From contig CP012155.1 in the NCBI GenBank assembly GCA_001602415.1, forward strand, positions 1,426,001-1,490,000: DNA of 64,000 nt, in the 5' to 3' direction. The DNA comes from Bacteroidetes bacterium UKL13-3 (GTDB lineage Bacteria > Bacteroidota > Bacteroidia > UKL13-3). Numbering within the stretch: the first letter of the stretch is position 1; each line of letters begins with the position of its first letter. Both the position numbers and the translations under genes were made by a program. Under the pieces are notes generated by a model that was given only the letters and a program-made list of their open reading frames with translations, made no database searches and was not told the origin of the DNA. Below, piece after piece: positions 7,116 through 53,930 of the stretch.

Positions 7116-7231
7116 AAAACTAAGGTCGTTTTTTAATGGAACTATACATATCTATAAGTGCTTTTTATTGAAGAGTTCCGTTTAAGCATTTAATGAATTG
7201 GAGAGTTCTGCCGTTCTAAATTCGCACTAAC

Positions 7232-18737: not shown

Positions 18738-19535
18738 AAATAGCGCTTAAACGAAGTGTACCCACTTCGTTTAAGCGTGTGTTGACTGAAGCGTGACGGG
18801 GTTTTTTGCGAGTTATGTGTTTTGAATGTTTAGGATTATTTTTGGCTGCTTGGTGGGTGTATTTTTAGTTGGTGCAGCTTTACTTTTTTAGCGCTTTAAT
18901 GCGCTTTTTTTGTGCTTTTTGTTTTGCAGGCTGGTAACTTTTGTGTGTTGTTTTAGGTTTTGGGCAATGCGCGGCCTAGTTGCCTGTTTTAGGCAATTAA
19001 GGTTATGCAATATTTAACGCTTGCTAGTGGGCTTGGTGTAGCAATGCCAATGGTGGTGCTTTAAACAATTGTTTGCACTCTTGCTTTGATAATACTACTG
19101 GTAAGGTTTGGTTTTTTTTGATACTGGGTAGTTTAATGGCTGCATCTTCCATACCAAATATTCTGAACCAAAAACGTAATGCAAAAACTGCATGCTTAAA
19201 GTAGCTGATGGATTTTCCTTCTACCTCGGTGCTTCTGTAAAAATAAGCGTTTAACTCATCAATACTTATGTGATGAGGAAACCTATTAAAGTGCAAGGCT
19301 ACGTAAGCCAACGAGCGACCATAGTTGGTTAACAATCCTTTGCTTAATTGTTTTACCATTACCTGCTCTAAAAAATAATCGTAAGCTTGGCTAAAGCCTA
19401 TTACCGATAACTTTGCTTGATGTACAATTGTTGATGTTGTGTTTTTTTTAATGTCATAACTTTATTGTTTTGATTTTATTTCTTACAAAGTTTATCCTAT
19501 TTTGCAATGAAATGCTACCGCAGGTTTAGTTCAAC
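18738..19535 (-). mobile_element. IS91-like element copy A (internal deletion derivative)
   Basis: An approximately 800-bp unit repeated almost identically at 26221 and 29599. The left end carries a long palindrome (GCGCTTAAACGAAGTG...CACTTCG..TTAAGCG), as expected for the oriIS end of IS91 elements. The right end is ...CCGCAGGTTTAGTTCAAC. The element is directly preceded by CCTATAAC and followed by the inner part of an attC-like site. The exact right border is uncertain because AAC occurs at both ends. It retains only the N-terminal part of a tyrosine recombinase ORF fused to the last residues of the transposase. Confidence 0.75.
19024..19359 (-). pseudogene. Truncated tyrosine recombinase of IS91-like copy A
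   Basis: MVKQLSKGLLTNYGRSL... is the SAM-like N-terminal core-binding domain of a tyrosine recombinase, ending in LPVVLSKQECKQLFKAP, just where the catalytic domain should start. The frame then joins PLALLHQAH, the C-terminal tail of the IS91 transposase seen in copy B, so a deletion removed the catalytic domain and almost the entire transposase. The open frame continues ~75 bp upstream without an ATG; an ATG at the edge of an A8 run would need a +1 shift. Non-functional as a recombinase. Confidence 0.75.
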
Positions 19536-37901: not shown

Positions 37902-38092
37902 GCTGCATGCCTAAAAGACGACCAGAGCAAAAATGAACGACAGAATGAAACAGAAAATAAGAACAGAAAAAGTAAATAATCAGACAGCCGACCCAAAAGC
38001 CAACGCTTCTGTATTTTTATTTTTTCCCACCGCACATTTTTTAAAAACAATTTTAGCCAGCCGCATCCCGAAAGCTTTCGGGAGCACATTTG

Positions 38093-38150
38093 GTTTTACC
38101 CGACATCCCGATAGCAATCGGGACCAACCCTTCGCAAAACCCAAAGAGCC
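38093..38150 (+). repeat. CACATTTG/CAAAGAG palindrome family, copy 5
   Basis: GCACATTTGGTTTT (38093 on) pairs with AAAACCCAAAGAGCC (to 38150). A smaller hairpin is nested inside (CATCCCGATAGCAATCGGGA, 38104-38123), and a similar one precedes it (38066-38083). CCAACCCTTCGCAAAA here is identical to the stretch at 7843-7858 upstream of hsdMS. Confidence 0.5.
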
Positions 38151-38228: not shown

Positions 38229-41200
38229 ATGGAATTAAAAGAATTGAAACCAAGAAAGGCACTAAACAAAGCCTTTTTAAAAGTAAAGCCGAACAGGACT
38301 GAAATTGAAGGTTTCAAGACAAATCTTATCCAGTTACTCGACAGGACAAACGACACCGAAAGCGAAGAGTTTCATAAAAACCTTGTCATTGACTTTTTAA
38401 AGAAAACTTATTACGACCCAAACCATTTTATAAATACCAAAGGTAGAAACGACCTTGTTATTCATAATGGAAACAATGCCAGCAGTTCAGTTGGTGTAAT
38501 CATTGAAGCAAAAAATCCGACCAACAAAACAGAAATGATAACCACTAAAAAACTGAACGCTAAAGCGTTTCAGGAATTAGTGCTTTACTACTTACGAGAA
38601 AGAATAACACATAAAAATCTTGAAGTAAAACATCTTGTTGCGACCAACATAAACGAATGGTTCATTTTTGACGCAACCCTATTCGACAGGCTTTTTGCTC
38701 AAAACAAAAACCTTGTAAAACAATTCAATGACTTTGAAGGCGGACGTTTGGCAGACACCAAAACAGATTTTTTCTACAAACAAATTGCAGAACCTTTCAT
38801 TGCCGACATCAAAACTGAAATTGAATTTACCTACTTCGATTTACAAGAATACCAAAAACCACTTCGCAACGCTGACAAGGCAGATGATAATAAACTCATT
38901 GCTTTATTCAAATTGCTGTCAGCGGAGCATCTTTTAAAACTGCCGTTCACCAACGACAGCAATAGCCTTGATAAAAGGTTTTACAGCGAGTTGTTACACA
39001 TTATTGGCTTGACAGAAACAAAAGAAGGAAGCAAAAAACTAATTGATCGCAACAAAGAAGGAGAAAGAAATTCGGGAAGCATTCTTGAAGATGCCATCAT
39101 TCAGCTTGACAGCTTAGACAAAATAAACCGCTTAGACCAACCAAGCCAATTTGGAAGTACACAACAAGAACGGTTATTTAATGTAGGACTTGAATTAAGC
39201 ATTACTTGGATAAACAGAATTTTGTTTCTCAAATTATTAGAAGCTCAGTTAATCACATATCACAAGGGCGACAAATCATATTCGTTTTTAAGTTTAGACA
39301 AAATCAAAAACTATGACGACCTAAACAGCTTGTTTTTTCAGGTGTTGGCTCGTAAGTATGACGACAGAAACCAAGATGTAAAAAAGGCATTTGAAAAAGT
39401 GCCTTACTTAAACAGTTCGCTTTTTGAACCAACAGAAATTGAACAAGTAACCTTATTCATCAGCAATTTAAAAGATGATAAAACAATTCCAGTTATTTCA
39501 TCAACAGTTCTCAAAAACGACCAAGGCAAAAAACGGACAGGAAATTTAACAACCTTAGCATATTTATTCGACTTCTTAAACGCTTACGACTTTACAAGCG
39601 AAGGTTCCGAAGAAATTCAAGAAGATAATAAATCACTTATTAACGCTTCTGTTCTCGGTTTAATCTTCGAGAAAATAAATGGCTACAAAGACGGTTCATT
39701 CTTTACTCCGGGTTTCATTACAATGTATATGTGCCGTGAAACTATTCGCAAATCGGTAGTTCAGAAATTTAACGAAACAAAAAAATGGAATTGCTCAACT
39801 GTTGAAGAACTTTACGACAAAATTGAAGACCGCAAAGAAGCCAACGACATCGTAAACAGCATTAAAATTTGCGACCCAGCCGTAGGTTCTGGACACTTTT
39901 TAGTTTCGGCACTCAATGAAATGATTGCTGTAAAAAATGACTTGAAAATATTACAAGACCGCACAGGAAAGCGACTAAAAGAATATCAAGTTGAAGTTGT
40001 AAATGATGAATTAATTGTAACAGACGAAGAAGGCGAACTATACGACTACAACCCTACAAATAAGGAAAGTCAGCGAATACAAGAAACACTATTTCACGAA
40101 AAGCAAACGATTATTGAAAATTGCCTTTTCGGTGTTGACATCAATCCAAACTCAGTGAAAATTTGCCGTTTGCGATTGTGGATTGAGTTATTAAAAAACG
40201 CTTATTACAAGTGGGATGGCAACTCCTCCCCTTTTGGGGGAGGTCGGGAGGGGGCTTTAGAAACACTTCCTAACATAGACATCAACATCAAATGCGGTAA
40301 CTCATTAGTTAGCCGATTTGCCATTGATGCTGATTTGAGCCAAGCACTCAAAAAAAGTAAGTGGACAATTGATGGCTACCGATTGGCAGTTGACACTTAC
40401 CGAAATGCTGAAAGCAAGGAACAGAAAAGAGAAATGGAAAGGCTGATTGCCGATATCAAATCGGATTTCAAAAGCGAAATTTCATTGAACGACCCCAAAG
40501 TTCTTAAATTAAGAAAACTATCTGGTGAGTTATTTACAATGACCAAGCAGACACAACTTTTTGAAATGAGCAAGAAGGAAAAAGCTGATTGGAACAAAAA
40601 GGTTTCGCAACTAACAGAAGAAACCAAAAAATTAGAAACTGAAATAGAAGAAATAAAAGCGAACAAAATATTTGAAAATGCTTTTGAGTGGCGTTTTGAA
40701 TTTCCAGAAGTATTGAATGACAATGGAGATTTTGTTGGCTTTGATGTGGTTATTGGAAATCCGCCTTATGGTGTGAAATTTGAGAATAATGAAAAGGAAT
40801 ATTTTAAAAGTATCTATCAAGAAGTTCACGTTAGAACTCCTGAATCATACAATTATTTTGTAAAGCAATTTACAATAATAGCCAGCAAAAAGGCTTTATG
40901 TTGTTTGATAATTCCATCAAGTTTTTTGAATCAAGCAGAGTTTGAAAAAACTAGAAAAATAATTTTAGCTAATTACTCTCCGTTTTTAATACTAAACCTT
41001 GGAGATGGAGTATTTGAAGATGTTGCAACACCAACTTGTATTATTGGTTTTGACTTACAGAATAAATACAAAGTGACCAAATACGAAGATTTAACAGCGG
41101 TTTCCAGAGCACAACTTGCTGATGAGATACAAATCACTAGCAACTCAATTGAAATAGAAAAACTTAATACTAATCAGTCATACAGTTTTATTTATAGACC

Positions 41201-41990
41201 TTACACCTCCATCCTTGATAAATGTTATAATGACATTCCAACATTGAAAGATGTTGCTGAAGATGTTGCAACAGGTATTAGTCCAGGATTAGGCGAAGCA
41301 TTTGTTTTAAAAATTGCGGAAGCCAATAAAAACGGAATGGAAAGCGAAATAATAAAAAAGTTGGTTATTGGCGGAGAAATTAATCGCTTTGAACTGCAAC
41401 CAAAATCAGGAAAAGGCATAATCTATTTTACGAATAAAATGTCAATCGCTGAATATCCTAAAACAGAGAAACATTTAAGTGGTTTCAAATCGAAATTGGA
41501 GAATAGAGTCGAAACTAAAAGCGGTGTAATACCTTGGTATGTTATGTTAAGACCAAGAAGACAAAAGCTATTTGAAGAACCAAAAATATTAGTTAGACAA
41601 ACTGCAAACAGAATCATAGCTGCTTACGATGACGATAAATGGTATTGTCTGAAAAGTGGCATTATTATTCAACTTCCAAGCGAAACTAAACTATCTTACA
41701 AATATTTGCTAGGACTTCTAAATTCTTCGCTAATGGACTTTTTATACAATGACTTAGTAAACGAAGACAATAGAATTTTTCCAGAAGTGAAACCAATTCA
41801 GTTATTTAAATTACCAATAAAAATTGCTTCATCTGAAACTCAAAAGAGTATTTCAAAATTGGTTGACACAATCACTGCATCTAAAAAACAAGGAGTAGAA
41901 ACAACAGAAATCGAAAAGGAACTTGACAAGCACATTTATAATGTTTACGATTTGACAGAAGAAGAAATAAAAATTATAGAGAAATCATAA
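38229..41990 (+). CDS. Type IIG restriction-modification enzyme (single chain)
   Basis: 1253 residues. An N-terminal PD-ExK nuclease (NDLVIHNG ... GVIIEAKNP, ~residues 77-98), a long helical connector, and an N6-adenine methyltransferase with motif I CDPAVGSGHFL (~residue 551) and motif IV NPPY (~residue 843). The C-terminal ~350 residues are a target-recognition domain. This order (R-M-S in one chain) is typical of type IIG enzymes that cut beside their site and need no separate methylase. An insert SSPFGGGREGA (~665-676) is encoded by a REP-like palindrome. The next gene starts at the following base. Confidence 0.9.
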   Translation: MELKELKPRKALNKAFLKVKPNRTEIEGFKTNLIQLLDRTNDTESEEFHKNLVIDFLKKTYYDPNHFINTKGRNDLVIHNGNNASSSVGVIIEAKNPTNKTEMITTKKLNAKAFQELVLYYLRERITHKNLEVKHLVATNINEWFIFDATLFDRLFAQNKNLVKQFNDFEGGRLADTKTDFFYKQIAEPFIADIKTEIEFTYFDLQEYQKPLRNADKADDNKLIALFKLLSAEHLLKLPFTNDSNSLDKRFYSELLHIIGLTETKEGSKKLIDRNKEGERNSGSILEDAIIQLDSLDKINRLDQPSQFGSTQQERLFNVGLELSITWINRILFLKLLEAQLITYHKGDKSYSFLSLDKIKNYDDLNSLFFQVLARKYDDRNQDVKKAFEKVPYLNSSLFEPTEIEQVTLFISNLKDDKTIPVISSTVLKNDQGKKRTGNLTTLAYLFDFLNAYDFTSEGSEEIQEDNKSLINASVLGLIFEKINGYKDGSFFTPGFITMYMCRETIRKSVVQKFNETKKWNCSTVEELYDKIEDRKEANDIVNSIKICDPAVGSGHFLVSALNEMIAVKNDLKILQDRTGKRLKEYQVEVVNDELIVTDEEGELYDYNPTNKESQRIQETLFHEKQTIIENCLFGVDINPNSVKICRLRLWIELLKNAYYKWDGNSSPFGGGREGALETLPNIDINIKCGNSLVSRFAIDADLSQALKKSKWTIDGYRLAVDTYRNAESKEQKREMERLIADIKSDFKSEISLNDPKVLKLRKLSGELFTMTKQTQLFEMSKKEKADWNKKVSQLTEETKKLETEIEEIKANKIFENAFEWRFEFPEVLNDNGDFVGFDVVIGNPPYGVKFENNEKEYFKSIYQEVHVRTPESYNYFVKQFTIIASKKALCCLIIPSSFLNQAEFEKTRKIILANYSPFLILNLGDGVFEDVATPTCIIGFDLQNKYKVTKYEDLTAVSRAQLADEIQITSNSIEIEKLNTNQSYSFIYRPYTSILDKCYNDIPTLKDVAEDVATGISPGLGEAFVLKIAEANKNGMESEIIKKLVIGGEINRFELQPKSGKGIIYFTNKMSIAEYPKTEKHLSGFKSKLENRVETKSGVIPWYVMLRPRRQKLFEEPKILVRQTANRIIAAYDDDKWYCLKSGIIIQLPSETKLSYKYLLGLLNSSLMDFLYNDLVNEDNRIFPEVKPIQLFKLPIKIASSETQKSISKLVDTITASKKQGVETTEIEKELDKHIYNVYDLTEEEIKIIEKS
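40221..40260. repeat. REP-like palindrome inside the type IIG coding region
   Basis: The segment contains CTCCCCTTTTGGGGGAG followed by GTCGGGAGGGGGCTTT. This is the look of the intergenic G/C-rich REP elements seen throughout Bacteroidota genomes, unlike the AT-rich gene around it. It keeps the frame open. Confidence 0.75.
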
Positions 41991-42860
41991 ATGATAACAG
42001 TTTATATAATAGTAGGGATTTTAGTTGTATTTGTTGTTGGCTTCATTGATGTTTACAAAAGACATTCGCGAATAATTGAAAAGATTGACTTTGCAGGGGA
42101 ATATCGTAACAAGTTTATTGACTTGGCTAACAAATATTTTAAAGATTATGACCGTTACAGCCGTTCGGGAACTCTTGACAACGAACTTTATGTTTGGCTG
42201 ACACTTAACGTAAGTAAAATGCAAAGCAACGTTGGGACATTTGGAGTTATGTCATACAAACCAGCGAATCAAAATTATATGATTAACAATTATCAAATCA
42301 TCATAAATACACTTCCAAAATTTAGAGAAGGACAAATTCAGAATTTTGATGTTGGTTCTGTTGACGACTGTTTACTTAGATACATTGGCTACTTAGAAGA
42401 TTACAAAAAGGAAACGGAAAAAAATGTAAAGAACCCGATAGTTTGGTTCAGAGAAGGCTTCAAAGAAATAATTAGTATTCCGCTTTTCATTTTAAGTTCG
42501 TTCGGTATTTTTAGTCGTAAGACAGTTGACAGCATTATGGACAGCGTTATTTTTAAAATATTGGCAGGACTTATTGCCCTTGTTACACCCCGTTCTCGCG
42601 GACGTATCGTCCGTGAGCATAAGAACGATAGAGCCCCAAGCAACCCTAATACTAAAGAAACCCGTTCTCGCGGACGTATCGTCCGTGAGCATAAGAACGA
42701 TAGAGCCCAAAGCAACCCCGTTCTCGCGGACGTATCGTCCGTGAGCATAAGAACGATAGAGCCCGTTCTCGCGGACGTATCGTCCGTGAGCATAAGAACG
42801 ATAGAGCCCAAAGCAACCCTAATACAAAAGAAAACCCCAAATGGACGGTTGCTCATTTGA
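41991..42860 (+). CDS. Membrane protein of unknown function with repeat-derived C-terminus
   Basis: 289 residues beginning right after the type IIG stop, so likely co-transcribed. Residues 1-18 form an N-terminal membrane segment (MITVYIIVGILVVFVVGFID), and another hydrophobic stretch lies at ~165-205. The last ~90 residues are translated from four 48-bp DNA repeats, read first as RSRGRIVREHKNDRA (twice) and then, after a frame change, as VLADVSSVSIRTIEP (twice). The original C-terminus probably lay near residue 200; the repeat tail looks acquired. I do not recognise the N-terminal domain; a role linked to the RM enzyme is only a guess from position. Confidence 0.55.
   Translation: MITVYIIVGILVVFVVGFIDVYKRHSRIIEKIDFAGEYRNKFIDLANKYFKDYDRYSRSGTLDNELYVWLTLNVSKMQSNVGTFGVMSYKPANQNYMINNYQIIINTLPKFREGQIQNFDVGSVDDCLLRYIGYLEDYKKETEKNVKNPIVWFREGFKEIISIPLFILSSFGIFSRKTVDSIMDSVIFKILAGLIALVTPRSRGRIVREHKNDRAPSNPNTKETRSRGRIVREHKNDRAQSNPVLADVSSVSIRTIEPVLADVSSVSIRTIEPKATLIQKKTPNGRLLI
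42589..42809. repeat. Four 48-bp repeats with an internal palindrome
   Basis: Units at 42589-42636, 42661-42708, 42717-42764 and 42762-42809 (the last two share CCC). Each contains GCGGACGTATCGTCCGTGAGC, with the palindromic core CGGACG-N-CGTCCG. A related palindrome (CGGACGTCACGTCCG) is at 42914-42928. It looks like a REP/BIME-type cluster at the 3' end of the membrane-protein gene. Confidence 0.85.
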
Positions 42861-53893: not shown

Positions 53894-53930
53894 TAAAAAA
53901 AGCAGCTAATATAATTAGCTGCTTTTTTTT
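53894..53930. terminator. Bidirectional intrinsic terminator between dnaJ and ferredoxin genes
   Basis: A perfect stem (AGCAGCTAAT with ATTAGCTGCT, 53901-53923) has an A-run before it and a T-run after it, so it can work on both strands. It is best placed to stop the minus-strand ferredoxin gene. Confidence 0.85.

Follow-up and report, generated by a model that had tools for sequence, protein, structure and literature searches.

Within the 64,000-nucleotide stretch of DNA analysed here (the window), a type IIG restriction-methyltransferase gene carries a short palindromic insert in its reading frame. We consider it probable, at roughly 0.6, that this insert is a nuclease-less unit of a mobile element built from palindromes and an EDxHD nuclease, residing unspliced in a permissive loop of the enzyme. 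The loop is occupied recurrently in homologous genes, and in two unrelated genes, those of the type IIG enzyme and of leucyl-tRNA synthetase (LeuRS), the same sites hold forms with and without a nuclease of the DUF559 family.

The host gene (38229-41990, forward strand) encodes 1253 amino acids, and its ORF is open throughout, insert included. The PADLOC profile REase_MTase_IIG (PDLC03612) matched residues 1-1252 with an E-value of 1.1e-244, and a Pfam search revealed N-terminal DUF7149/DUF7814, an Eco57I-type methylase and a TaqI-type specificity domain (TaqI_C). In a 35-row alignment of the methylase, the motifs NPPY and DPAVGSGHF are invariant in all rows. Judged by the full-length match and the intact motifs, the protein can be classed with the type IIG enzymes that carry an Eco57I-type methylase; it resembles them over its whole length, and the loop insert is its sole unusual feature. 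Because the reading frame and the methylase motifs are intact, no sign of impairment of the enzyme was seen in the gene sequence. The same genome encodes a second type IIG homologue (L115, G000:C1:3194500-3200000), which is 70% identical and has an empty turn, KNATE.

The original prediction described a G/C-rich palindrome at 40221-40260 that codes for SSPFGGGREGA without breaking the frame. Both the peptide (residues 666-676, 40224-40256) and the open frame were confirmed; the location was correct, but the end was not, as it runs one codon into the conserved segment LETLPNID. The hairpin itself, CCTCCCC-TTTTG-GGGGAGG, was found by pattern search at 40225-40243 on the forward strand and is followed by a G-rich tail, TCGGGAGGGGGCT (40244-40256, forward strand), which ends at LETLPNID, hairpin and tail together covering 40225-40256. 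The same hairpin-then-tail layout is seen in the homologous loci L012, L040 and L052 and in the 5' unit of L142/L143. The insert had further been placed after YYKWDGN; it does lie at this junction, between YYK and LETLPNID, but WDGN belongs to the extra DNA. Because WDGN also falls in the stretch that is absent from most homologues, the extra DNA comprises 40212-40256 (forward strand), i.e., 15 codons, WDGNSSPFGGGREGA, where most homologues have 12 bases coding for NxTE or similar. In the protein, 15 residues replace a four-residue turn. A five-residue turn was found at the insert site in 67 of the first 81 loops read, and in L115. In a model of the methylase (491 amino acids, mean pLDDT 75), the insert is predicted to form a coil (193-206) between two short strands (190-192 and 207-209). 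This placement fits an exposed turn, although model confidence is low there, with block means of about 60, and the insert is probably tolerated as a surface loop, as had been proposed.

The stem of 7 bp is modest (p = 0.02 both against windows of equal length from the same gene and against shuffles). Two matches to the hairpin pattern were obtained in none of 100 shuffles of the window (mean 0.01). A chance palindrome was rejected by these shuffle and gene-window tests; RNA stability alone gave no support, the fold of a 50-mer with the insert being ordinary compared with shuffles (z = -0.49). The stronger evidence is comparative.

Other palindromes were found in the window by a palindrome scan. 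Two short ones, TCCCGAAAGCTTTCGGGA and CCCGATAGCAATCGGGA, lie just upstream of the type IIG gene (38066-38123, forward strand). Just downstream of the gene (42590-42800, forward strand), inside ORF 41991-42860, a nested palindrome of 38 bases occurs four times in identical form, and with up to three mismatches allowed these are the sole copies in the genome. Strong isolated palindromes with stem scores of at least 18 are present at 18744-18777 and 53895-53929 and are perhaps terminators.

The insert had been thought to be a REP-like element of the kind repeated in intergenic DNA. Mapping of its copies did not support this. With up to three mismatches, the genome of 3,236,529 bases contains one copy of the element and one unrelated site, and the broader CCYTCYCC-type REP pattern had no match in this genome, compared with at least one in 12 of 16 genomes examined. 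The element was therefore rejected as a dispersed repeat of its own genome. Among 296 genomes sampled from the phylum, a 31-base form of the element matched two, namely its own and G095 (two mismatches). In G095 it lies in frame in LeuRS, where it codes for SSPSGGGREGA in the same frame as in the window, and this LeuRS also carries a DUF559 domain; both sampled matches are therefore inside conserved genes. A third copy, from outside the 296-genome sample, was found in the type IIG gene L012, whose loop of 48 bases differs from that of the window at two positions and lies at the identical place. The insert is therefore not unique, contrary to what had been expected, and L012 and the other occupied loops led us to reject the idea of a window-only oddity. 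None of 13 stretches from viral contigs is a relative, and the matches in plasmids (194 records) and phages (7 records) are all below 60% identity.

Homologues of the host gene were taken from a search of 84,980 species genomes, which gave 234 relatives (the best 80 retained), and from sampled genomes of the phylum (34 of 395 at an E-value up to 1e-100) and the class (32 of 395). The peptide pattern of the former search, KNAYYKWD, spans the window's own junction, and its loci may be enriched for the insert. There were 132 unique genes, of which 114 had a readable loop; the other 18, without a flanking motif, were left out. The loop has five residues in 78 genes, six to nine in 13 and at least 12 in 23. 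Two of the 23 long loops are of 170 and 172 amino acids (L143 and L142, respectively), and the other 21 are of 12-37 residues. With a palindrome defined as a stem whose length exceeds that expected for its own gene at p up to 0.05, for which about one is expected among 21, 16 of the 21 loops of 12-37 residues are significantly palindromic, the window and L012 included, compared with none of the 13 loops of six to nine residues. The five failures count against our reading. For two of these loops, those of L024 and L050, there is nevertheless a match to a palindrome family that is multi-copy, with 12 forward matches in the genome of the former and 6 in that of the latter. The long loops of L091, L148 and L047 are unexplained or weak by this test.

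The loop palindromes fall into at least seven unlike types: CTCCTCCCC in the window and L012; a CCTTCTCC/CCCTCTCC-like type in L040, L052, L056, L092, L141 and L146; CCCAYGGTTTAAACCGYGGG in L024, L050 and L062; an ACCT..AGGT-like type in L032/L132, L088 and L120 (a palindromic locus on a split contig, outside the 114-gene count); and GTAGATACAGGGCATGCCC, GGGCGTATGGCAATACGCCC, CCGTTGACTTAAGTCAACGG, CCCCGGAACAAGTCCGGGG and ACCCGATTCATCGGGT in L033, L066, L147, L086 and L087, respectively. The original prediction had counted against itself any homologues carrying the same loop with unrelated DNA. Such homologues were indeed found, and tellingly so: most other long loops are themselves palindromes of unrelated sequence, and two are complete DUF559 nucleases with palindromes on either side.

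An ordinary RNA fold is what would be expected if the palindrome were a by-product of loop drift or of a Gly/Pro-rich codon bias. The comparative data contradict this and make it very improbable, as the loop of L012 is nearly identical in DNA, a unit of the window's type recurs in the unrelated LeuRS, and most of the short inserts at the site are palindromic.

Several of the loop palindromes are multi-copy in their genomes. Related sites number 48 in G008, 21 in G209 and 6 in G106, and there are 15 matches in G002 and 12, 6 and 9 forward matches of one palindrome family in G005, G006 and G007, respectively. The L147 type has few copies, with three forward and two reverse matches in G615. In L050 (8664-9508) and L062 (8859-9627), the loop palindrome type also occurs just downstream of the gene, with four copies spaced 72 bases apart in L050, and L062 has a further copy inside the type IIG gene at 7150. 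For multi-copy families, insertion by a RAYT is a possible route. Such a route would make the window's unit a stand-alone REP, brought in as a copy by the tyrosine transposase and without a nuclease at any time. REPs inside genes have been described, and in Xanthomonas recB different ones lie at roughly the same position (PMC3733652). The window's type, however, is single-copy in its own genome, and neither GTAG nor CGTC occurs in 40212-40256 on either strand, which makes a RAYT origin of this unit rather unlikely.

A tree built from the methylase region on either side of the loop, with the insert columns excluded (114 genes, 345 columns), requires at least 21 changes between occupied and not occupied loops. 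It was a quick, non-mixture tree with weak support, 49 of 111 inner branches being open; 22 genes were labelled occupied, L063 and L047 uncertainly, and L091 and L148 were labelled not occupied. The nearest relative of the window's gene on the tree is L004, which is empty, and L012 groups with the empty L031. DNA identity along the gene is mosaic. In 60-base bins, the window and L004 are 92-100% identical shortly before the insert and 80-93% after it, and the window and L012 are 88-93% identical over 1810-2230 and 67-77% at 1500-1800. Local gene conversion is therefore possible, and shared inserts may have spread in this way. Gene conversion would fit a homing-like process but is no proof of one.

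If the loop acted only as a permissive filter, many palindromic repeats would insert at random, with no targeting and no link to DUF559, and those in tolerated places would be kept. The variety of palindromes at one turn, the predicted position of this turn between strands, and the presence of palindromes elsewhere in the type IIG gene agree with such a filter; the last point, together with palindromes at other places in LeuRS, weighs against our reading. Among 283 rare inserts of at least six residues in type IIG genes, stems of at least 8 are mainly at residues 660-679 (9 of 26, with the two long DUF559 inserts there left unscored), and others are at about residues 105, 197, 345, 517-532 and 1012. 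However, the length-variable region from residue 940 onwards is little used, with a stem of at least 8 in 1 of 169 rare inserts, and full nuclease elements are found at identical sites. A filter as the sole explanation therefore seems somewhat unlikely. A second type IIG site, at residues 517-532, is occupied by palindromes in L119 and L122 and by DUF559 in L146 and L165/G705. The type IIG gene L146/L162 (G433) has three insertions, namely palindromes near 345 and 669 and a DUF559 at 517-530, and is open for 1481 amino acids.

In L143 and L142, a DUF559 nuclease with palindromes on either side occupies the loop in frame. The L143 domain, from a genome of the window's family, matched Pfam with an E-value of 1.5e-30. 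The 5' unit of L142 begins with the 13 bases CTCCTCCCCTTTT, which are identical in the window's unit, and the frame, the orientation and the layout are also shared. The L143 gene is open for 1378 amino acids; in L142, a stop follows further along the gene. In an alignment of DUF559, E56, D58, H62 and D71 are invariant in 35 of 35 rows, and we take these to be the residues after which the EDxHD family is named, from our reading of that name. An hmmsearch with the DUF559 profile gave the endonuclease-like protein 3hrl (2.5e-32), which is the nearest solved relative by sequence, ahead of 3r3p, entitled "Mobile intron protein" (1.2e-5). A Foldseek search with a DUF559 model (pLDDT 85) likewise gave 3hrl (4.2e-7), 3r3p, which is the homing endonuclease I-Bth0305I (1.3e-4), and Vsr (1cw0, 5.4e-3). 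With the E, D, H and D kept and both profile and predicted fold matching I-Bth0305I, the insert of L142/L143, as distinct from that of the window, is a candidate EDxHD homing endonuclease. I-Bth0305I was deposited as a mobile intron protein, whereas the DUF559 domains here read in frame within a host protein. EDxHD homing endonucleases have been described in group I introns (PMC3943268), one DUF559 gene has been placed in this family (PMC9403480), and in Caulobacter a Vsr-like DUF559 protein is reported to lie behind an SOS response (PMC12907096).

Full and nuclease-less forms also share sites in LeuRS. Of 149 genomes sampled from the class, 147 had a LeuRS match; a gene was obtained from 140 of 145 loci, and 138 sampled genes were aligned, with the hand-picked L353 and L354 left out. 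Among the 138 genes, DUF559 is present at two sites, before IEVFTTRPDT in nine genes and before the ETTTMPGWAGSSWY segment in eight; the total of 17 is a lower bound because five loci without a usable gene were omitted, including that of G483, which has DUF559 in a long frame. Palindromes without a nuclease were found at the first site in four genes (L330, L331, L340 and L348) and at the second in five (L260, L308, L318, L331 and L340). At the second site, L331 and L340 keep a pair of palindromes that enclose no domain, which is the arrangement a remnant should have. Further long inserts at the two sites, 6 and 23 in number, were below the palindrome threshold. In G002, the LeuRS DUF559 lies between two palindromes that are of the same kind as the one in this genome's own type IIG loop (L040). 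Residues 645-764 of LeuRS hold 216 rare inserts, with no DUF559 by motif and three A/T-rich stems at p = 0.02, which also argues against a filter acting alone. A degenerate DUF559-like stretch in L294 (G530) lies near reference residues 656-688, a third place, and in this respect does not favour our reading. The LeuRS gene L342 (G137) has a 130-residue insert at the second site that was not recognised as DUF559. The inserts of L342 and L294 are perhaps decayed nucleases retained in the synthetase, and they were not counted as full elements.

Of 295 genomes sampled from the class, 122 have DUF559 (E-value up to 1e-10), and 72 of the 150 best matches listed are in open frames of at least 300 amino acids. 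We scanned 16 long frames with Pfam for host domains on either side of DUF559. Methionine synthase (MetH) domains flank it on both sides in L153, L183, L185 and L200, and it lies within LeuRS in L184, L190 and L193, within acetyl-CoA synthetase (Acs) in L203 and L211, and within the type I restriction subunit HsdR in L186. In L160 and L197 the host is a class I tRNA synthetase according to Pfam, presumably IleRS by its motifs. L194, L181 and L202 have a Pfam domain only on the side before DUF559, and L175 has no other domain. In L194 (G181), DUF559 is at the C-terminal end of a glutamine-amidotransferase protein, and the flanks share a 42-base exact inverted match, which is perhaps recent. Of 60 DUF559 loci, 55 were recognised, 52 remained after duplicate removal, and 49 had complete flanks. 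Hairpins that score at least 9 and are no more than 250 nt away from DUF559 lie 5' of it in 34 of the 49 loci, 3' of it in 40 and on both sides in 31, compared with 23 of 191 control windows. The threshold of 9, used for DUF559 flanks and LeuRS sites, was chosen after the data were seen; at 9.5, 10 and 11, the controls gave 18, 13 and 9 of 191.

Our preferred reading of the window's insert as a nuclease-less unit of a mobile element would work as follows. The full element would have the form palindrome, DUF559 (a nuclease of the EDxHD/Vsr type), palindrome. The nuclease would cut an allele without the element, and repair would then copy the element into the cut allele. Only in-frame insertions in protein-permissive turns would survive, and loss of the nuclease part could leave one or two palindromes. 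The window's unit would have inserted in frame into the turn that follows the motif II helix in the methyltransferase domain, and it would not be spliced. No direct parent is visible, because the unit has no nuclease, a stem of 7 bp and one copy in the genome, with two DUF559 matches elsewhere. Because unlike palindromes with no nuclease partner seen share the site, one nuclease cannot explain all events or cover all palindrome types, and a permissive-turn filter therefore very likely acts too.

It seems to us about an even chance that these insertions represent an undescribed class of unspliced Bacteroidota homing elements, with an EDxHD (DUF559) nuclease between two palindromes, translated within the host protein and targeting fixed, permissive turns in a set of conserved genes (type IIG methylase, LeuRS, MetH, IleRS, Acs and HsdR). 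The palindromes would serve as mobile DNA ends and as linker peptide, and the window's insert would be a nuclease-less remnant or a passenger. Selfish DNA inside genes normally needs splicing, as in introns and inteins, to spare its host. If true, homing into essential genes with the element kept in the protein would be a third way beside these two. It would provide a source for palindromes inside bacterial genes and would explain why, in this class, nuclease domains sit within synthetase and methionine synthase genes. Natural empty, solo and full alleles exist at the type IIG loop and at both LeuRS sites, which makes mobility, target choice and the cost to the enzyme directly testable.

A literature search, partial in coverage and mainly of titles and the beginnings of abstracts, found no report of in-frame palindrome-flanked DUF559 elements; with this coverage, the absence of a report is no proof of novelty. 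The nearest precedents are the Rickettsia palindromic elements (RPEs) and intragenic REPs. RPEs are described as inserted in frame in protein genes that stay open (PMC10969869), and the window's palindrome likewise sits in frame in an ORF whose function can be recognised and which stays open. In the comparison by length only, RPEs are about 150 bp, and they are multi-copy and found in Rickettsia, whereas the insert in the window is 45 bases long, single-copy and in a genome that shares its class with Bacteroidota relatives, and its site holds nuclease-bearing forms in homologues. Intragenic GTAG/CGTC REPs are short hairpins inside coding regions, and recB has received them at nearly the same position in two species (PMC3733652), and the window's hairpin is also short and inside a coding region. 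Unlike these REPs, however, the element has no such tag and is present as one copy, plus one unrelated site with three mismatches, in 3.24 Mb, and the type IIG turn is hit by many palindrome types and holds DUF559 forms as well.
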